Virus record (IMG/VR): IMGVR_UViG_3300044615_000144
Location: 1-24,320 of that record
Length of the DNA stretch: 24,320 nt
Reading direction: 5' to 3' (one strand)
DNA from: a virus
Part shown: piece after piece, positions 1,329-23,596 of the stretch
How the letters are laid out: each line of letters begins with the position of its first letter
Position numbering within the stretch: the stretch's first letter is position 1
Program-made: the position numbers and the translations under genes
The notes under the pieces: model-generated
The model's input: only the letters and a program-made list of their open reading frames with translations
Told to the model about the DNA's origin: nothing
Databases searched by the model: none

Positions 1329-1615
1329 GCGCACTTAGATACGCAGTGCTTGATGCAAACGGCGTCAAACTGAATGGCATCCTTGTGAACGATCCGTATC
1401 CGCAGGATTACTGGCCAGGGTATGGTCGCTATATAACTTGCGAGTTTGGCGAACTTGACCCAACACCTCCCGCCAACCACGAAATAAAACCGCCGCCGCG
1501 CGAGTTTTCCTACCTGGCCGTGCGCCCGCTTGCGTCCATGAACATTGGCGACACAATGAACTTGGCGACAGGTGAAGTCACACCCGCGCCCGCACCGGAG
1601 CCACAGCCGGAATGA
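1325..1615 (+). CDS. Small fibre-associated hypothetical protein
   Basis: A 96-residue protein. The ATG at 1325 is chosen over the upstream in-frame ATG at 1277 because it overlaps the previous stop as ATGA, as in the next several genes. The protein is rich in Pro, Tyr and aromatic residues (NDPYPQDYWPGYGRYITC) and ends in a Pro/Ala/Glu tail (TPAPAPEPQPE) that looks like a flexible linker. No catalytic motif or membrane segment is seen. It lies between a fibre-like gene and two glycine-rich adhesin-like genes. A chaperone or small connector for these fibres is possible, but that is inference. Confidence 0.6.
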   Translation: MSALRYAVLDANGVKLNGILVNDPYPQDYWPGYGRYITCEFGELDPTPPANHEIKPPPREFSYLAVRPLASMNIGDTMNLATGEVTPAPAPEPQPE

Positions 1616-2523
1616 GTATTGACGTTCAAATCTTTACTTCTGGCAGCGGCAACTGGACAAAACCAACCTGGGCCACGCTTGTGCGGGTTGTTTGCGTTGG
1701 CGGAGGCGGGGGCGGCGGCGGCGGCGACACGGCTGCATCTGCGACTGCCGTTTCCGGCGGGGGCGGCGGTGGCGGTGCTTCTCGTACTGAAACTTGGTAT
1801 TCTGCCTCCGATCTTGGCAGCACTGAACCTTACTCTGTTGGGTCCGCGGGCACGGCTGGAACTGCTGGCACTGGCGCTGGCGGCGGCAATGGTGGTCAGG
1901 GTGGCAACTCTACGTTTGGCGGCAACGTGATGACCACTATCCAGACTGGATACGGTGGCGGCGGCGGGTCTGGCGGCTCCACCGCAAGCTCAAGCGGTGG
2001 CGGCGGCGCTGGCCTTGCTGGCGCAGGTGGTAATGCTTCCGGCGCAACCCCGGGTGCTGCGGGTGCCAACGGCGGCATTGTTGGTTACATCACGGGTGGA
2101 CCGCGAAGCGACCAATTAAACCTTGGTGGCGCAGGTGGCGCAGGAGCGACCACTGCAAGCGGCGTCGGGATAGGAGGTTCCAGCATTCTAGGTGGTGGTG
2201 CGGGTGGTCCCGGTGGCGTTAAAACTGCGGTACCTGCTTATGGTAGCGGAGGAAATGGTGGGCAGTCTCGCGCTGCCAGCCTTGATGGTCCGCCGGGCGG
2301 CACCAACGCTGGTATTGGGCCATTTGCAGGAGGCACTGCACCGCTTGGTTTTGCGGGTGCTGGAGGCTCTGGCGGCGGTGCCAACGCAATTGCGGCATAC
2401 GCTGGCGGCGCAGGTGGTTTCCCCGGCGGCGGCGCTGGTGGTGGTGGCTCATCAATCACAGGCGGCGCTGCCGCAGCAGGCGGCGTAGGAGGGGCGGGCA
2501 TCGTGATCGTCATCAGCCAATGA
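1612..2523 (+). CDS. Glycine-rich adhesin-like virion protein (copy 1)
   Basis: A 303-residue protein that starts at an ATGA overlap. Residues 1-30 form a conserved lead (IFTSGSGNWTKPTWATLVRV followed by VCVGGGGGGGGG). The remainder is glycine runs separated by short Ala/Ser/Thr/Asn segments, and the C-terminus is a hydrophobic GGAGIVIVISQ strand. This is the layout of phage glycine-rich domain proteins (the Gly_rich type in Pfam), where polyglycine helices can pack into a receptor-binding tip, as in the Salmonella phage S16 long-tail-fibre adhesin. The next gene is a clear paralogue. Its position in the head/neck area is unusual for a tail-tip adhesin, and a head-fibre role is an alternative. 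The gene is very GC-rich because of Gly and Ala codons. Confidence 0.75.
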   Translation: MSIDVQIFTSGSGNWTKPTWATLVRVVCVGGGGGGGGGDTAASATAVSGGGGGGGASRTETWYSASDLGSTEPYSVGSAGTAGTAGTGAGGGNGGQGGNSTFGGNVMTTIQTGYGGGGGSGGSTASSSGGGGAGLAGAGGNASGATPGAAGANGGIVGYITGGPRSDQLNLGGAGGAGATTASGVGIGGSSILGGGAGGPGGVKTAVPAYGSGGNGGQSRAASLDGPPGGTNAGIGPFAGGTAPLGFAGAGGSGGGANAIAAYAGGAGGFPGGGAGGGGSSITGGAAAAGGVGGAGIVIVISQ

Positions 2524-3482
2524 CAGCTTCATCTCAGGTTAAGGTTACAAAATACACCTCTGGCTCTGGCACGTTCAGCAAGCAAAGCTGGGCGCAGGCA
2601 ATCCGGCTTGTGCTGATTGGTGGCGGTGGCGGCGGTGGTGGGTCTGGCCAACGTGTCGCTGGCGCAGTGTCAACTGCGGGCGCTGGAGGAGGTGGCGCGG
2701 GCGTTTTAGACATCACGCTTGCCGCATCTCAATTCGGTATATCAGAAACTTATTCAATTGCTTCCGGTGGGAGTGCTGGTGTCGGGGTTGCCGCCACAAC
2801 CGGGGCCACAGACGGCGGACAAGGCGGAACCACCACATTCACCATTGGTAGTGGTGTAATAGTTCTTTCTGCATACGGCGGAGGTGGTGGGCGCGGGGCA
2901 ATTTCCACCTCTGGCGGGGGTGGTGGCGGTGCTGGACTTTCCGGCTCTGGGCAAACTGCGGCTTCAACCAATGCTGGTGTTGCTGGTTTGAACAATGGAG
3001 CAACTGGCAATGTAACAAGCACAAGCATTCAAGGCGGCGGAGCAGGAGGTGGAACTGCGGGCGGCGGTGTAACAAACCCCGGCGGTTCTGCTCCATTCGG
3101 AGCGGGTGGCGGTGGGAGTGGCGGTAATAAGGACGCTTCTGACAACTTTCAAAATGCGGCAAACGGCGGCGCATCACGCTACATTTTAGGTGGCGCAGGA
3201 GGCACCACAACTGGCACTCTCAATGGCACCGCAGGAAGCCCCGGCATCGGTACGCAGCCGGGTTCCGGCGGTGGCGGAGGTGCAGCCGCAGCACCAACAG
3301 CAGGAAATGGTGGCAACGGTGGGACGCCCGGAGGTGGCGGGGGTGGAGGTGGCGCAACTCTGGCTTCCGGCTCCAACCGGGGCGGCGATGGTGGGGCTGG
3401 TGGGCGCGGAGAAATCTGGGTCATTGAGTACGAGAGCGACCCTTCTGGCGGCACTGTTGGATACGGGTTGATAATTGGATGA
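2520..3482 (+). CDS. Glycine-rich adhesin-like virion protein (copy 2)
   Basis: A 320-residue paralogue of the preceding gene, joined by an ATGA overlap. It has the same lead (KYTSGSGTFSKQSWAQAIRL, then VLIGGGGGGGG), a long glycine-rich body and a C-terminal beta strand (GEIWVIEYESD) with a short tail (GTVGYGLIIG). The two copies align at both ends, while the glycine-rich bodies differ in order and spacing, as expected for surface-exposed, diversifying binding tips. They might form a heteromeric adhesin or be alternative tips. Family-level recognition is good; location in the virion is inference. Confidence 0.75.
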   Translation: MTASSQVKVTKYTSGSGTFSKQSWAQAIRLVLIGGGGGGGGSGQRVAGAVSTAGAGGGGAGVLDITLAASQFGISETYSIASGGSAGVGVAATTGATDGGQGGTTTFTIGSGVIVLSAYGGGGGRGAISTSGGGGGGAGLSGSGQTAASTNAGVAGLNNGATGNVTSTSIQGGGAGGGTAGGGVTNPGGSAPFGAGGGGSGGNKDASDNFQNAANGGASRYILGGAGGTTTGTLNGTAGSPGIGTQPGSGGGGGAAAAPTAGNGGNGGTPGGGGGGGGATLASGSNRGGDGGAGGRGEIWVIEYESDPSGGTVGYGLIIG

Positions 3483-17762: not shown

Positions 17763-18134
17763 CTATCCTCCTTTAGTCGCCGCCCCGCTCATATTCAACA
17801 AAGACAGCAGTTTGTCGCTGGCATCGGTTGCGCCATAGCCAACAATAACGTGATGGCCGATGCTTTCCAAGTATGAAATCATGTCATCCTGATCGGATGA
17901 TGTGCGCCCGCCTTTCTGGCGTTTCATCTCGATCCAGATTCCCCATGCCGGAATAAACAAGTCTGGAACGCCAGGAACAACGCCTTCGGCCTTCATCTTC
18001 TTTGCCGTCGAGATGTTGCGCTTGCCGCCATTAGGTATTGCAAAGATCAATACACGAGGCCATTTGGCGCGAAACCATTGCACGAATCCGGCTTGTTCTT
18101 CATGCTCAGAAGGGAGGGAAACCGTTAAACGCAT
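17763..18134 (-). CDS. VRR-NUC domain nuclease
   Basis: A 123-residue protein with the VRR-NUC fold. Motifs: 'HEEQAGFVQWFRAKWP' at the start with the conserved acidic and Gln residues, 'FAIPNGGKRNISTAKKMKAEGVVPGVPDLF' with the catalytic Asp (D58), 'WIEMK' (E69, K71), and 'SSDQDDMISYLESIGHHVIVGYG'. VRR-NUC proteins act as structure-specific nucleases, often on branched DNA or Holliday junctions. The start at 18134 has AGAAGG five bases ahead; an upstream ATG at 18197 would add 21 residues with no family match. It stands next to the helicase and fits a recombination/replication set. Confidence 0.88.
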   Translation of the reverse strand: MRLTVSLPSEHEEQAGFVQWFRAKWPRVLIFAIPNGGKRNISTAKKMKAEGVVPGVPDLFIPAWGIWIEMKRQKGGRTSSDQDDMISYLESIGHHVIVGYGATDASDKLLSLLNMSGAATKGG

Positions 18135-18309
18135 CGCAGCCTTCTTTCTGTACCTCATCAGGTACAACGTCACGCCAATGAGTGCAATATCGAGCATCGT
18201 ACAGGCTCACGCAATCAGAACAGCGGTTCTTGGAGTTCTGCCAACTCTTCGGCGGTGAGGCGCTTGGGCTGGCTATAGTCGAGTTGTACAATGTCGTGGA
18301 ACTTGTCAT
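18106..18309 (-). CDS. Candidate small cysteine-rich protein overlapping its neighbours
   Basis: A 67-residue ORF that overlaps the 3' end of the helicase gene (to 18215) and the 5' end of VRR-NUC (from 18134). The second half reads 'RCSDCVSLYDARYCTHWRDV' then 'VPDEVQKEGCDAF', a CxxC-x(8)-C-x(15)-GC pattern common in small phage zinc-binding proteins. The N-terminal part is low complexity (Thr, Ser, Pro). An AGGTGA lies about six bases before the ATG at 18309. The cysteine half fills the 80-base gap between helicase and VRR-NUC. It could also start later; expression is uncertain. Confidence 0.45.
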   Translation of the reverse strand: MTSSTTLYNSTIASPSASPPKSWQNSKNRCSDCVSLYDARYCTHWRDVVPDEVQKEGCDAFNGFPPF

Positions 18310-19840
18310 TCGGCTTCACCTTTATCCTGCGCGGCTTGATCCAGTGGTCGCACTCTTGCATGGCGTCCTCGGTGGTCATGGCAGACGCCCCCAGCGATGG
18401 CATCCGTTTCTCGTATCGCTCCGAAGCATAGCCTCCGTGGTCAGGGCATAGCCACTCAGAGACCTTGATCAGGCCGCAATAATAGGTGACGCGGATGCTG
18501 TCTGGCTTGCCCTCTTTGCGCCAGCGGGAATAGCCCACATCGTCAACGTCAACCCATTCGGCCTGTACCTGTGTGGAGATCATCGCGCCAGAATATGCCT
18601 TCGTTCCGTGGTTGAACTGCGGAGGCGGGAATTGATGGCCGCACTCGATGCACACTCTAACGGCGGCATGATTGACAGTCAAACATTCCGGGCATTTCTT
18701 GACGGGCGCTTCGCCGTCTTCGGTGCGACCTTTGATCTTCGGCTTGATCTGATCAATGAATCCGTGGCGCATCACGTTGTCGCCGTAGTCTAGCACCAGG
18801 CAGTTGTCTTTCCCCGGCGCGATGCGTGTGCCACGCCCGACAATCTGGATGTACAGGCCGGTGCTTTCGGTAGCCCTTACGATTGCCACAAGATCGACAT
18901 GCGGAACATTGAAGCCGGTGGTCAAGACGTTGACGTTGATCAGGCACTTGCTTCCGCCACGCCGGAACCGCTCGATCTTGTCGGCGCGTGCGCTCATGCC
19001 ATCGGAACCAGTCACCACATCCGCCGCGATGCCATGCGTCTCGAACTCGGCGCGCAACAACTCAGCGTGATTGACGCCGCAGGCAAAGACCAGCCATGCC
19101 TTGCGCTCCGCACCATAGCGCACGATTTCAGCAACCGTTTCTGTTACCAATTCCGGATCGGATGCAGCCTTGGCTAGTTCGCTCTCAATATATTCCCCGC
19201 CGCGTTTTCCGACATTCGAGAGGTCGATGGTCTTGACTCCGCTCTTGCTAATCACCGGAGCCAAGAAACCCTGTTCCATGAGATCGGCAACCGGGATGTC
19301 GTATGCGATGCCGTCGAAGATCGCGTTATCACCTTCGTGCAGCCAGCCGCTGTCGAGCCGGTAGGGCGTGGCCGTAAGACCGACCACCTTCACACCGCGA
19401 TTGCATATGCGAAGGTCCGAGAGGAACTTGTTGTAGCGTGTGCCGTAGTTCTTCGGGATCAGGTGCGCCTCGTCTACGATCACCAGATCAGGCGCTGGGA
19501 CCATCTGATAGGCCTTCTTGTGGATCGACTGAATGCCCGCGAACGTGATCGGCTTCCGCAGCACTTTCTTCTTGAGGCTGGCGCTGTAGAAGCCGACATC
19601 TGCCTCGGGATAAAGCGCCACCAACTCGCTAGCGTTCTGCTCCAGCAACTCCTTGACATGCGTCAAGATCAGAACGCGCGTGCCGGGATAACTCATCGCA
19701 TCCTTGATCAAGTGTGCGATGATTAGGCTCTTGCCCGAGCCAGTCGGAGCGACGATGATCGGGTTGTCGCCCTTCTTGTCTGACCAATAATTGTATAGGC
19801 CATCAATCGCGGCGCGTTGATAGGGGCGGAGTTCTAGCAT
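18215..19840 (-). CDS. SF2 DNA/RNA helicase, DEAH-type, with zinc ribbon
   Basis: A 541-residue superfamily 2 helicase. Motifs: Q-like 'LRPYQRAAIDGL' (4-15), Walker A 'APTGSGKS' (31-38), DEAH (123-126), 'TATPYR' (156-161), 'NVLTTGFNVPHVD' (motif V, about 304-316) and 'QIVGRGTR' (motif VI, 332-339). A zinc ribbon lies near residues 383-400 (CPEC-x10-CIEC), after the helicase core, and a C-terminal domain of about 140 residues follows. This arrangement is common in phage DNA replication or recombination helicases. ATP-driven DNA unwinding or branch migration is likely. It overlaps the nuclease gene by seven bases, and acts probably with it. Confidence 0.93.
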   Translation of the reverse strand: MLELRPYQRAAIDGLYNYWSDKKGDNPIIVAPTGSGKSLIIAHLIKDAMSYPGTRVLILTHVKELLEQNASELVALYPEADVGFYSASLKKKVLRKPITFAGIQSIHKKAYQMVPAPDLVIVDEAHLIPKNYGTRYNKFLSDLRICNRGVKVVGLTATPYRLDSGWLHEGDNAIFDGIAYDIPVADLMEQGFLAPVISKSGVKTIDLSNVGKRGGEYIESELAKAASDPELVTETVAEIVRYGAERKAWLVFACGVNHAELLRAEFETHGIAADVVTGSDGMSARADKIERFRRGGSKCLINVNVLTTGFNVPHVDLVAIVRATESTGLYIQIVGRGTRIAPGKDNCLVLDYGDNVMRHGFIDQIKPKIKGRTEDGEAPVKKCPECLTVNHAAVRVCIECGHQFPPPQFNHGTKAYSGAMISTQVQAEWVDVDDVGYSRWRKEGKPDSIRVTYYCGLIKVSEWLCPDHGGYASERYEKRMPSLGASAMTTEDAMQECDHWIKPRRIKVKPNDKFHDIVQLDYSQPKRLTAEELAELQEPLF

Positions 19841-20763
19841 GTGCTAAACTCCCTGCCCTTGTTCCGCACGATCTCGCCGTCTTCGTTGATGTAATCGATC
19901 CAATCCTCGCCGCTGTCATGCACCGGCAGCTTCACCAGTGCCGGATTGTATATGTGATCACCGCAGCCGCTGCGCTGGTCGATTTCATCGAGTGCCTTCT
20001 TGTGCCTGGCGCATGACCAGCCTTCGGCCTCTGCCGTCGAGAAGGCGCATGTGCGGCAGTTTATTTCAGATGCATCGTCTCCGTGGCAGATCGAATGATA
20101 TGGACAGAACTTACATTCGAACCATGCCGGATCGTTGCTGATTCCAAGCGGTGGCCGTTCGGTCGATATGATCGCTCTGGCCTTCTCAATAAGCCCCTCT
20201 GCAAAGGCATGATCGACCTTGAGCCGCTCCGCATAAATCTCGTCGGTGTTCTTGTTGACCGAAATGAACAGGCAGCGATCCAGCCCACTCAAGTGCATTC
20301 CGATCTGGCACTGTGCATAATAGACCGGCTTCGCCTTCTCGACGCCAAGGTTGCACAACACCTTGAAATACTTCTCGCTCATAGTCTTAACTTCGAGCAT
20401 GTGGACCTTGGAACTTTCCGGCAATCCCTCGACCACTCCGTCCAGGCTCAAGGCGAAATGCCCGCCAACCGCCGTATATCGGAACTGCTGGCCTGTTGCC
20501 GGATCGCGATCCCAGACCGTGCAACCGGCGGCTCGTAGATTCTGGATCACGCGCAGTTCCTCGCGTTCGCCAGTCTCGAAGAGGCGCAAGATGCGGCCTT
20601 CGTGCTTCTCGGTATAGGTCCACCGGAACTGATACCAAAGCGCACGGGCGCAAGTGTTGCCGATCTGAGACCCGCCAAGATGCGGCCTGTGTGCGTTGCG
20701 GCGGTTGTCTTCGTATCGCTGATAGATCGCCTTTACGATTGGCGATGTCATGTCTAGTTTCAT
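19834..20763 (-). CDS. Cas4-like PD-(D/E)XK exonuclease with cysteine clusters
   Basis: A 309-residue nuclease. Seen: 'SQIGNTCARALWYQFRW' (C38), D108 in 'LSLDGVVEG', 'LEVKT' (E124-V-K126) and the Gln-motif-like 'YYAQCQIGMHLSG', which form a PD-(D/E)XK active site. C38 with C217-x2-C220-x5-C226 (ECKFCPYHSIC) matches the 4Fe-4S ligand pattern of Cas4/AddB nucleases. A second set, C236-x2-C239-x11-C251-x15-C267 (NCRTCAFS, WSCARH, GCGDH), looks like a zinc-binding module. It probably resects DNA ends. It is ATGA-coupled to the upstream gene and overlaps the helicase start by seven bases, so these two may form a complex. Confidence 0.86.
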   Translation of the reverse strand: MKLDMTSPIVKAIYQRYEDNRRNAHRPHLGGSQIGNTCARALWYQFRWTYTEKHEGRILRLFETGEREELRVIQNLRAAGCTVWDRDPATGQQFRYTAVGGHFALSLDGVVEGLPESSKVHMLEVKTMSEKYFKVLCNLGVEKAKPVYYAQCQIGMHLSGLDRCLFISVNKNTDEIYAERLKVDHAFAEGLIEKARAIISTERPPLGISNDPAWFECKFCPYHSICHGDDASEINCRTCAFSTAEAEGWSCARHKKALDEIDQRSGCGDHIYNPALVKLPVHDSGEDWIDYINEDGEIVRNKGREFSTC

Positions 20764-21230
20764 TCGTCTTCCCTCCCGGTAATGCTCTCGATCATCATTC
20801 GATCATAGTGCATAAACATGCTAATTGCTTTTGCATTGACGCCTTCGTCGTGCATCCACTTGATGATCTTCATCCGCCTGATTGTGACTTCTTTCGTCAT
20901 GTTCTCGTTTTGCTGGGCAATGACACGCTTGTAGAAGTCGCTCGTGGCCGTCTCGCTTGCACCGAAGTTCTTGGCAATTTGATTCCAGAATCGCCTCTTG
21001 ATCCGCAGCTTCTCGATCCGCCGGAAGTCATCCATCGACCAATCACGGCGAACCATTTGCGCCTTTGGCCGATTTTCCTCTCCATCTGTCCACGTGTAGC
21101 GTTTGAATTGCGGGATATAGTCAACTGGCACATCGTTCCAGACGATGCGGCCTTCGACATCAAAGCTCCAGAAGTTGCCGTCCAGCTGCTGCTTCATGAA
21201 GCGTTCGACTGCATAGGTGTCGGTGGTCAT
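20760..21230 (-). CDS. Hypothetical protein with HTH/Myb-like segments
   Basis: A 156-residue protein with no named family recognised. Two segments look DNA-binding: residues 64-101 (WSMDDFRRIEKLRIKRRFWNQIAKNFGASETATSDFYKRV), which resembles the Myb/GcrA type, and residues 114-150 (EVTIRRMKIIKWMHDEGVNAKAISMFMHYDRMMIESIT). The N-terminus is a mixed beta region (FDVEGRIVWNDVPVDYIPQFKRYTW). SD AAGGGA precedes the ATG. Being between recombination genes, it could be a DNA-binding helper, but function is unknown. Confidence 0.62.
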   Translation of the reverse strand: MTTDTYAVERFMKQQLDGNFWSFDVEGRIVWNDVPVDYIPQFKRYTWTDGEENRPKAQMVRRDWSMDDFRRIEKLRIKRRFWNQIAKNFGASETATSDFYKRVIAQQNENMTKEVTIRRMKIIKWMHDEGVNAKAISMFMHYDRMMIESITGREDE

Positions 21231-21254: not shown

Positions 21255-22145
21255 TTAGACATAACGACGGTCGCTGCCAGCAACACGCATCGCGTCGCGC
21301 TCCGCAATGAACTTGTCGGTTTGTTCCATGTCAAAACGGGCAGGAATGATTTCGCAGTTAAAGCCGCGCCAGTCGAACTGCGTGCCGCCGCGCATATGCT
21401 TGCGAACATATATCTCAACATCTGGATCGCGACGGTTCTGCCGCCAGTGATCTGACACCCAATTCATCAACGCGTCACGACGATCCCTACCTGGCTGCAC
21501 GTCACGGAGACGAAATAGTTCTTTCATACCCGTTGGGTCTGTCGCTATCCGAACCGATGGTGTGTTTGAAAATCCAACGTTGACCGCCCACTCATAACGC
21601 TGGCGCAATGCTACGCCGATGGCCACCCCGCCTAAATCCAGATAGCCATCAGAAACATTACCCGTGCGCGCAGGGATAGGATTGTCTGCCGTTCCTTCCC
21701 AGAGTGTTCTTTTTTGTGCATCTGACCAACGACCGCCAAAAAAAGAAAGGAGACCAGATGCCGTGATAAGCTTGCCTCTGTCGTGAACTGCAACATCTTT
21801 CCTAAGCATGAATGGGCTTATCCGCGAGGCATAGCCTCTCACTTCTTTCGGCGTCACAGACCTAAGCCGCATCATATACATATCATAAAGATCAGCACTG
21901 CCGCGTATTAGACAGACATCAATCGGCCATACGATGCTTGGTGTGCATTCTCTAACATTAAATATCCACCAGTCATCTCCTTCGTAAAGCAAAGCTGGGT
22001 CAACGCCTCTGAATGACGACATAGGTGGCGGGGCAAGAAAATCTTTTCGTGCATTGTTAACTTTAAGTGAAGGAACATCTAAAACGCGCCGAATCACATC
22101 AAATACCCTAGCGCGAATTTTGGATTCATCATTCATAGTGCTCAT
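21255..22145 (-). CDS. Unknown 296-residue protein, AT-richer than neighbours
   Basis: A 296-residue protein with no family recognised. It contains conserved-looking blocks: 'YEGDDWWIFNVRECTPSIVWPIDVCLIRGSADLYDM', 'AVNVGFSNTPSVRIATDPTG', and 'RDRRDALMNWVSDHWRQNRRDPDVEIYVRKHMRGG', followed by 'FDWRGFNCEIIPARFD'. There is no membrane segment or signal peptide. A strong AAAGGAGG Shine-Dalgarno precedes the ATG at 22145. The coding sequence, notably around 21700-22140, is clearly richer in A and T than the genes on both sides and is preceded by an AT-rich gap with a hairpin, so it may be a later insertion (a moron) in the recombination operon. It is not the usual partner of DUF669. Confidence 0.65.
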   Translation of the reverse strand: MSTMNDESKIRARVFDVIRRVLDVPSLKVNNARKDFLAPPPMSSFRGVDPALLYEGDDWWIFNVRECTPSIVWPIDVCLIRGSADLYDMYMMRLRSVTPKEVRGYASRISPFMLRKDVAVHDRGKLITASGLLSFFGGRWSDAQKRTLWEGTADNPIPARTGNVSDGYLDLGGVAIGVALRQRYEWAVNVGFSNTPSVRIATDPTGMKELFRLRDVQPGRDRRDALMNWVSDHWRQNRRDPDVEIYVRKHMRGGTQFDWRGFNCEIIPARFDMEQTDKFIAERDAMRVAGSDRRYV

Positions 22146-22176
22146 TATTGCCTCCTTTGTTGCATTTATATTAGTT

Positions 22177-22205
22177 GCGAGCGTCCGTAGACGCCCGCGC
22201 TTTTT
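22177..22205 (+). terminator. Plus-strand hairpin and T-run inside the leftward operon
   Basis: GCG-A-GCGTC (22177-22185), loop CGTA, GACGC-C-CGC (22190-22198) and then GC and TTTTT (22201-22205). On the plus strand this is a credible intrinsic terminator with one A/C mismatch in the stem. On the minus strand there is no T-run after the stem, so leftward transcripts would pass. It could stop antisense transcripts. Confidence 0.5.
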
Positions 22206-22218
22206 GTCCAGTATCTAA

Positions 22219-22668
22219 TTACTTCTTCTTCCAGGGTGGCGTTGCAGCCGCAGGTGCCGCAGCCGGTGCGCCGCCTTCGCACGGCTCGTATCCGGCGATC
22301 TCGTTCGATGCCTGATACTGACCTTCTGCGGGCTTGACCTTGACCGTGATCATGAGCGGCTTGTCATGGAGGTCAGAACTTTCGTTCGGCATCATGACAC
22401 CAACCGAGCGGCAAATGGCCGAGAGCGTCCTCTGGGCAATCTCTTCTGCCGTCTTGTTCGGGTTGTTGAGGTTAAGCCGGTCCATCAGGCTAACGCCTTG
22501 GTGCGGCCCTTCGATGATCTGGCAGGTCAGCACCAGCATCGAGCCGGTCTGTGCCTTGGTGGGGCGCTCCTCGCTCTTGGTGATCACAGCCTTGTACTTG
22601 CCAGCCGGGATCGTTTCGCGCGGCGCACTCGGCTCCACGACATTCGCATCAAATCCATTCAGTCTCAT
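22219..22668 (-). CDS. DUF669 protein, probable phage ssDNA-binding protein
   Basis: A 149-residue protein with the DUF669 pattern: 'LNGFDANVVEPSAPRETIPAGKYKAVITKSEERPTKAQTGSMLVLTCQIIEGPHQGVSLMDRLNLNNPN', 'AEEIAQRTLSAICRSVGVMMPNESSDLHDKPLMITVKVKPAEG', then a Gly/Ala/Pro linker and a terminal 'PPWKKK'. DUF669 proteins have an OB-like fold and are linked with Sak4 recombinases and SSB function in phages. SD AGGAGA is seen. The pairing with the upstream Sak4-like ATPase supports the role. Confidence 0.85.
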   Translation of the reverse strand: MRLNGFDANVVEPSAPRETIPAGKYKAVITKSEERPTKAQTGSMLVLTCQIIEGPHQGVSLMDRLNLNNPNKTAEEIAQRTLSAICRSVGVMMPNESSDLHDKPLMITVKVKPAEGQYQASNEIAGYEPCEGGAPAAAPAAATPPWKKK

Positions 22669-22677
22669 TCTCTTCTC

Positions 22678-23433
22678 CTACTTTGCTACAAATGCTTCAA
22701 AAGGGTTGCCGCTCTCGAAGGTGAACGGCAGCGGCTGGGTGATGTTAAAACGGTTCTTCGTCACGCTCGAGGCTTGCGGGAAGCAGATGATCTCCCGGTC
22801 GCCTGTGCTGATCGCCCGCTTCTTGTCGCCATCACCTCGGACGTAGGTCTTGAGCCGGATCAGGCCCACGAGGTCCACGTTGTCGGTGTAATGCGGCAGT
22901 GACTTCTTGTGCATCCGCACCGTGTATCTGGCGAATGGATCAAAGTCTGGCAGATCTAGCGTCTCGGTATCAGCGTGGCCGATGAAGACCACGTTCATGC
23001 CGCGTTCGTAAGCCAGTGCGCCAGCCCATTCCCGCACCTGCCGGTGCTTCTCGGCGGCGGTATTATAGCCAGCGCCGTAACCGCCACCGGCTTGGTTGAT
23101 GCTCTTGGCCTTGGGATCGGCTGCAACAATCTCATGCTCGATGAGCGTAGCAAGCTGCGTGATGCTATCAATCACCACCGTCTTGAAGTCATGCTCCTGC
23201 GTTGCCAGTGCTTCGATCTGGTCAAGCACTTCCTGGCTCGATGAGACCAGCGGAAAAAGCATCACTTCATCGTTGCCAGCAAGCGAAGCCGTGCCGTCCT
23301 CGGTGCGGATAAACACCGGCCTCGGGAACATCGCAGCCAGTGTGCTCTTGCCCATGCCGCCTTCACCGAAAACTGTTGCGATGATGGGGCGTTGCCCTTT
23401 CGGGCGCTCCAGTTTCTTTAGATCAATTGCCAT
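22678..23433 (-). CDS. Sak4-like RecA-fold ATPase (phage annealing recombinase)
   Basis: A 251-residue protein with a P-loop near the N-terminus (FGEGGMGKST, residues 22-31), a Walker B strand ('FKTVVIDSITQLA'), and 'NVVFIGHADTETLDL' further along. This is the minimal RecA-like ATPase of the Sak4 type, which in phages supports single-strand annealing recombination with a DUF669/SSB partner. The start at ATG 23433 has AAGGAGG nine bases ahead; a longer reading from GTG 23454 would place this Shine-Dalgarno inside the gene. The stop lies nine bases before the DUF669 gene. Confidence 0.87.
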   Translation of the reverse strand: MAIDLKKLERPKGQRPIIATVFGEGGMGKSTLAAMFPRPVFIRTEDGTASLAGNDEVMLFPLVSSSQEVLDQIEALATQEHDFKTVVIDSITQLATLIEHEIVAADPKAKSINQAGGGYGAGYNTAAEKHRQVREWAGALAYERGMNVVFIGHADTETLDLPDFDPFARYTVRMHKKSLPHYTDNVDLVGLIRLKTYVRGDGDKKRAISTGDREIICFPQASSVTKNRFNITQPLPFTFESGNPFEAFVAK

Positions 23434-23596
23434 CGTTCTCGGCCTCCTTAACACCGAGTATCCTCATTGCCTCTCGCAGGTTCTCAACAGCGCACCGCAC
23501 ATGATGGTCACGGTTCACCTTGTCAGTCTTTGCAATGACCAAATGATCGCGGGCATACTGCAAGGCGTCTGCTGCTCCGTAGATGTCCCTACTCAT
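23423..23596 (-). CDS. Small hypothetical protein
   Basis: A 57-residue protein (MSRDIYGAADALQYARDHLV at the start; KVNRDHHVRCAVENLREAMRILGVKEAENDGN at the end). The ATG at 23596 overlaps the previous stop as ATGA; the longer ORF to 23695 would run inside the upstream gene. It is mainly helical, with no known family. Its stop overlaps the start of the Sak4-like gene by 11 bases, so the two are translated together. Confidence 0.6.
   Translation of the reverse strand: MSRDIYGAADALQYARDHLVIAKTDKVNRDHHVRCAVENLREAMRILGVKEAENDGN

Follow-up and report, generated by a model that had tools for sequence, protein, structure and literature searches.

An accessory gene of an apparently undescribed protein family at an exchangeable junction of a phage recombination operon

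Introduction

Phage morons, in the stricter definition, carry their own promoter and terminator, and they are further recognised by expression from a repressed prophage or by a benefit to the host. The gene described here, gene X, lies in a 24,320-nucleotide stretch of viral DNA (IMG/VR record IMGVR_UViG_3300044615_000144, positions 1 to 24,320), the whole of which is referred to as the window. It resembles morons in being present or absent between conserved neighbours, in its lower GC content and in standing outside the core module. It differs from them in lying inside an early operon, in belonging to a family that the searched libraries do not describe, and in that the scans gave it neither a promoter nor a terminator.

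Free-standing homing endonuclease genes of the GIY-YIG and HNH types occupy the same kind of slot, and a GIY-YIG gene is present in the identical junction of one related locus (L066); unlike these, gene X and its relatives match no nuclease family. Homing endonucleases of phages are often encoded close to essential genes, according to an excerpt of PMC10448857. Hotspots of phages and their satellites can carry antiviral systems (excerpt of PMC9122126), and they are like the present site in their fixed borders and small exchangeable contents, whereas here the hotspot lies within a recombination operon and gene X matches no known defence family. A further point of comparison is the 7-deazaguanine DNA-modification genes of phages (excerpt of PMC6884629). 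A Vut_1 gene with a TGT-like gene forms cargo at the neighbouring Cas4-helicase junction, and a homologue of gene X sits inside a QueE-GatQueC-FolE-DpdA-like cluster; by profile, however, gene X is none of the enzymes of this pathway, and the phage Quinobequin-P09 has the genes without gene X. What is known is the kind, an accessory gene in a phage hotspot, while the protein family itself matches nothing in the libraries searched.

Gene X and its operon

Gene X starts with ATG, and an AGGAGG sequence stands 5 nt upstream of this codon. On the minus strand the operon reads Sak4 - SSB (DUF669) - gene X - U156 - Cas4-like exonuclease - helicase - VRR-NUC, with the following features.

22678..23454, minus strand: Sak4-like annealing protein (phrog_124, E 2e-45)
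22219..22668, minus strand: DUF669 / phage SSB gene, bordering the junction upstream (Pfam PF05037, E 6e-19; phrog_6015, E 7e-42)
22177..22198, minus strand: hairpin with a 9-pair stem and UACG loop, after the SSB gene (fold z -4.3; a hairpin at 39 of 43 SSB junctions)
22151..22156, minus strand: AGGAGG, likely ribosome-binding site of gene X (from the sequence)
21255..22145, minus strand: gene X, accessory protein of 296 aa (open reading frame without family match; homologues in IMG/VR; dN/dS 0.20-0.24 against two relatives)
20760..21230, minus strand: U156, 156-aa protein, downstream border of the junction (no convincing family; also downstream in close relatives)
19834..20763, minus strand: Cas4-like exonuclease (phrog_1990, E 2e-94)
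18215..19840, minus strand: DNA helicase (phrog_16, E 1e-101)
17763..18197, minus strand: VRR-NUC-like nuclease (phrog_824, E 1e-38; Pfam VRR_NUC weak, E 0.006)

The profile matches of these neighbours confirm the original prediction that gene X splits the DUF669/Sak4 part of the operon from its nuclease/helicase part. The same prediction held that the 296-residue protein has no recognised family and a different base composition, and both statements were borne out. Pfam, PHROGs and PADLOC returned no match to it at E≤1, and NCBIfam, the fourth library, gave a single meaningless one (E 0.12). The gene is AT-richer than its operon, its GC3 of 0.465 standing against 0.69-0.73 in five neighbours (SSB, Sak4, U156, Cas4-like exonuclease and helicase), and the first 300 nt have a GC of only 0.43-0.44. 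Measured against the window its GC is only moderately low, since both GC (0.498) and GC3 rank third lowest among 29 chosen genes (z -1.6 and -1.7). A promoter scan, which covers the sigma-70-like type, found none for gene X, and the single terminator-like site in the scan lies inside gene X on the opposite strand.

U156 shares 74-95% identity with its counterparts in near relatives and about 26-35% with those in more distant phages. The nearest cultured relatives of the helicase are the Roseobacter phages CRP-901 and CRP-902. In CRP-901 the annotation divides the DUF669 gene into two overlapping ORFs (gp15, gp16), and gp17 (L188:3209-4153), annotated as an oxidoreductase, looks by eye like the Cas4-like exonuclease of the window. 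Elsewhere in the window, positions 1612-3482 hold, one after the other, two glycine-rich ORFs (303 and 320 aa) that are tail-fibre-like.

The junction in related phages

Relatives were taken as the best 80 of 216 IMG/VR stretches encoding a relative of the Cas4-like exonuclease, and the operon genes were located in each. Gene content was examined in 51 loci (L043-L093), 43 of which have both SSB and U156 and so count as complete junctions. Gene X occupies two of the 43, another 12 hold no more than 70 nt, and 29 contain other DNA. Among the 33 junctions from phages with 90% identity or more in the Cas4-like exonuclease, gene X is present in two, nine are empty and 22 have other content. The two that carry it (L047 and L065) lie on the same contigs as L003 and L002, respectively. 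Most of these phages keep the same SSB end and the same U156 start, and it is the stretch from stop to start codon that is exchanged. Scans of the whole IMG/VR collection with patterns derived from gene X found no further copy in this lineage, so that, as far as these patterns reach, the gene does not reside elsewhere in those phages.

These counts establish gene X as an accessory gene with little room for doubt, and they support the moron-like insert of the original prediction. This support does not extend to the stricter sense of a moron, the sigma-70 scan giving no promoter and the terminator-like site being antisense. For the anti-host or anti-phage role also suggested there, a candidate one, no matching defence model (PADLOC, gene X), no transmembrane-like stretch (40 members) and no conserved partner gene (within 3.5 kb) came to light. 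Conservation in the same place and with the same composition across all related phages did not occur.

The gap before gene X had been described as AT-rich and hairpin-containing, as though part of the inserted piece. It is 73 nt long with a GC of 0.45 and does contain a stable hairpin (-20.1 kcal/mol, z -4.3, none of 200 shuffles as stable). A GC-rich hairpin of at least 7 pairs, usually GGGGCGGC...GTCGCCCC, however stands close to one end in 39 of the 43 junctions, whether these are empty or carry cargo; the finder also takes stems that are unrelated, and a handful of these 39 (e.g. L063, L082) look so. In the phages bearing gene X a stem of different sequence stands at the same place, and by eye a similar stem follows SSB in CRP-901. 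Since it is found whatever the cargo, and at the same place with another sequence in the bearers of gene X, this hairpin is a feature of the SSB end. Having no T run, it falls short of a textbook terminator. A cassette made of hairpin plus gene was considered and rejected, as the hairpin exists without gene X. Within the clade of eight members described below, no common hairpin ahead of the gene was seen by eye; L141 has a strong hairpin ahead of its gene X homologue, of different sequence.

The other contents of the SSB-U156 junction include the GIY-YIG gene of L066 (Pfam E 3.3e-6), an ORF of equal length in the same junction of L071, and a 688-nt version, 2 nt longer than the L066 content, in L053, L054 and L064, where the full ORF is missing. 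These last forms are as expected of decaying homing genes. L084 gives a weak Pfam match to GIY-YIG, and four other scanned contents (132, 102, 269 and 253 aa) have no Pfam match.

Other junctions of the same operon vary as well. A second hotspot is the Cas4-helicase junction (window 19834-19840), where the two genes overlap in some loci and are separated by inserts of 281-1187 nt in others; inserts occur in L049, L055, L057, L084 and L088. Its cargo includes a Vut_1 transporter (E 3e-10) paired with a gene of 226 aa read as TGT/DpdA-like, a reading with no Pfam match and weak BLAST support, and also a gene of 178 aa whose methyltransferase match lies below threshold. The DUF7173-Sak4 junction varies in L046, L050, L083 and L089, with an HNH/AP2-like gene by eye in L089, and the U156-Cas4 junction varies in L076 and L084, both with a PAPS-reductase-like gene by eye.

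The protein family

Iterated searches and one degenerate pattern placed homologues of gene X on at least 54 IMG/VR contigs. The pattern recovered 51 stretches, of which 50 contain a member (49 by HMM, together with L019) and one (L171) does not; the contigs L007, L008, L009 and L042, found by the relative search alone, complete the count. Forty varied sequences were aligned, excluding L176 (179 aa) and near-identical copies.

In the other collections searched, no member came to light. A tblastn search of 50,697 phage records with eight members gave no match (gene X at E≤10, five members at E≤1, two at E≤0.01). Against plasmids gene X had one chance-level match (E 0.5) and L035 and L132 had none, and in genome contigs patterns derived from the profile of gene X's own subfamily confirmed no relative. 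PHROGs and Pfam, searched with gene X alone and with 7 and 40 aligned members, returned just scattered matches to single members at E 0.02-0.5. The PDB, searched by sequence, gave nothing with 40 members and two matches at E above 1 with 7. The family thus appears undescribed, judged by the libraries searched. No paper on it was found, and since it has no name to search by, absence from print is not claimed.

A linked partner gene was sought within 3.5 kb of the members, and none is conserved across lineages. The candidate was rejected, the shared genes being limited to near pairs or to general helicases, methyltransferases and the like. Two distant members, L019 and L132, have in common an upstream helicase (36% identical) and a methyltransferase (43%). 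None of the 40 members has a transmembrane-like stretch (19-residue window over 1.6, Kyte-Doolittle).

Conservation and predicted structure

The protein falls into two parts.

21540..22145, minus strand: N-terminal part, residues 1-202, a helix and then a beta-rich domain, sequence-variable (AlphaFold2; 17% pairwise identity)
21342..21539, minus strand: C-terminal module, residues 203-268, conserved, made up of three helices and a beta hairpin; one more helix comes after it at 270-289

The C-terminal module carries the motif TDPxG..RDxPxGxxRRxALxHWVxxHxR..VRxHxRG..FxWxG..C.I.P. Eight residues are invariant in all 40 members (R214, R222, R223, L226, W229, H233, R235 and G253), and a further five are present in 39 (W186, D215, G219, A225 and R252). 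Mean pairwise identity is 17% for residues 1-170, over 780 pairs, and 45% for residues 186-268. The net charge of the module averages +4.2 over the 40 members, but is only +2 in gene X itself.

The same division is visible at short evolutionary distance. The frame is intact in both close relatives that carry the gene, against which dN/dS is 0.20-0.24 overall (N part 0.33-0.38, C part 0.09-0.13); purifying selection thus acts on the protein. Synonymous divergence of gene X (0.13-0.15) is below that of the other comparable operon genes (0.16-0.34); the Sak4 row of L047, which was out of frame, was dropped. That the ORF is a functionless frame, arisen by chance or in decay, finds support only in a composition unlike that of the neighbours, and is a very remote possibility indeed given these ratios, the intact frames, the motifs kept across 40 members and a confident model.

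That model was built by AlphaFold2 from the 40-row alignment and has a mean pLDDT of 80 and a pTM of 0.78; an earlier one from 7 sequences (pLDDT 40) was not used. The predicted chain opens with a helix, continues as a beta-rich domain up to residue 202 and closes with three helices, a hairpin and one further helix. Foldseek found nothing at E≤0.001 in the PDB or among viral models (best E 0.2 and 0.03, respectively), and VIA-align gave at best Z 2.8, for 54 residues. The structure prediction proposed for this protein yielded a confident model without a clear fold match, the C module being barely reached by the searches, and a new fold is not claimed from it. The last elements of the model resemble a winged helix in their order, a likeness that no search supports.

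Mobility and neighbourhoods

In the tree gene X belongs to a clade of eight members (support 100/100) that are spread over about six different neighbourhoods, as follows; many of the neighbour-gene names are readings by eye rather than profile results.

Window and L002: SSB and Cas4
L004: DUF932-like and RecT-like genes, by eye
L005: serine recombinase and primase-like genes, by eye
L027: DNA polymerase
L007: short unknown ORF
L028 and L029: deazaguanine cluster

Further members are found behind an integrase (L038) and behind the large terminase (L042), and the family occurs in unrelated phage operons. In L029, a queuovirus-like phage, the order is QueE-GatQueC-QueD-FolE-X-DpdA-like-clamp-Pol. 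The cultured Pseudomonas phage Quinobequin-P09 has FolE and the DpdA-like gene separated by 58 nt and no gene X, with seven neighbour pairs 36-68% identical and in the same order. As far as sequence comparison goes, this shows a second insertion site, between FolE and the DpdA-like gene of L029.

Low GC is a property of the family at large. After 8 near-identical loci had been dropped, 12 of the remaining 39 were skipped for flanks under 1,000 nt; of the 27 members left, 22 have a GC below that of both flanks, a pattern shown by 26 of the 107 control ORFs drawn from these loci (Fisher p 7e-8), the members not being fully independent and the controls being mechanical ORFs. The other five of the 27 are not AT-richer than both flanks. 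Gene X is, very probably, horizontally mobile.

Possible function

Gene X is best read as a mobile accessory gene of the early operon, and its product as a protein acting on nucleic acid, with counter-defence as the likeliest role; as a whole this reading is given a probability of about 0.45. The gene has come to lie in the early recombination operon, with SSB on one side and the gene for the 156-aa protein on the other. Its arrival was probably by exchange of the stretch between the two conserved flanking genes rather than by a dedicated integrase, through homologous recombination and perhaps by means of the phage's own Sak4 system. Once in place, it would be transcribed early together with the operon. 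The Arg/His/Trp-rich helical C module may then touch nucleic acid, the fast-evolving beta-rich N part might recognise a variable partner, and the protein could serve early in infection as a factor of counter-defence or host takeover.

The later steps draw on the conserved Arg/His/Trp-rich module, the fast-changing N part, the soluble make-up, the early-operon site and the nuclease and modification genes found as alternative contents. From sequence and model together, binding of nucleic acid has about an even chance; against it stand the charge of only +2 on the module of gene X itself and the lack of any fold or profile match for DNA binding. A role in counter-defence or host takeover is put forward tentatively, as somewhat less than an even bet, and it has against it that no PADLOC model matches gene X.

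A selfish nuclease of homing type, so far unrecognised, which would cut the empty junction and be copied in, could account for the sporadic presence between conserved genes and for the low GC. The same slot holds the GIY-YIG gene of L066, the ORF of equal length in L071 and the broken form, 2 nt longer, of L053, L054 and L064, and the frequent siting of phage homing endonucleases close to essential genes, as excerpted from PMC10448857, fits as well. Yet no nuclease family was matched (Pfam, PHROGs and NCBIfam on gene X, Pfam and PHROGs on the 40 members), the eight invariant columns consist of Arg, His, Trp, Leu and Gly with none acidic, and the members lie in unrelated sites with no common target visible. 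On balance homing is unlikely.

Equally doubtful is an optional recombination or replication helper of the adjacent annealing protein, SSB and exonuclease. Gene X is co-directional within the operon, and PHROG matches identify neighbours of other members as Erf-like (L036), RecT-like (L035, L037), RecE-like exonuclease (L036), polymerase (L027, L028), clamp (L028) and primosomal protein (L035). That members often adjoin annealing, polymerase or exonuclease genes also fits such a helper and counts against the counter-defence reading. Conversely, gene X is missing at the junction from 31 of the 33 close relatives that have this module, other members follow a terminase (L042) or an integrase (L038), and no partner gene is common to the lineages.

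Protection of the infected cell from other phages, by superinfection exclusion or anti-phage defence, is less probable still. Hotspots in phages and satellites can hold antiviral systems (PMC9122126, as excerpted), and gene X is AT-rich and accessory. Against this, the scan of gene X with PADLOC gave no match, a transmembrane-like stretch is found in none of the 40 members, and the gene sits in an early recombination operon with no promoter of its own in the scan.

Significance

The phages compared here offer a clean natural comparison, one operon with and without gene X, its proteins over 90% alike, and the junctions of the Sak4-SSB-Cas4-helicase operon emerge as hotspots for exchangeable genes. 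On a bold and improbable reading, the RRxALxHWVxxHxR...VRxHxRG module might mark a new virus-borne DNA-targeting class, in which the conserved module joins diversifying recognition domains; as an early-operon cassette across dozens of unrelated phage lineages it would be a general anti-restriction or homing device, overlooked because it is absent from the cultured phages searched. If gene X is a homing device, it points to an unknown nuclease. If the counter-defence reading is true, it points to a defence target that has so far gone unseen.
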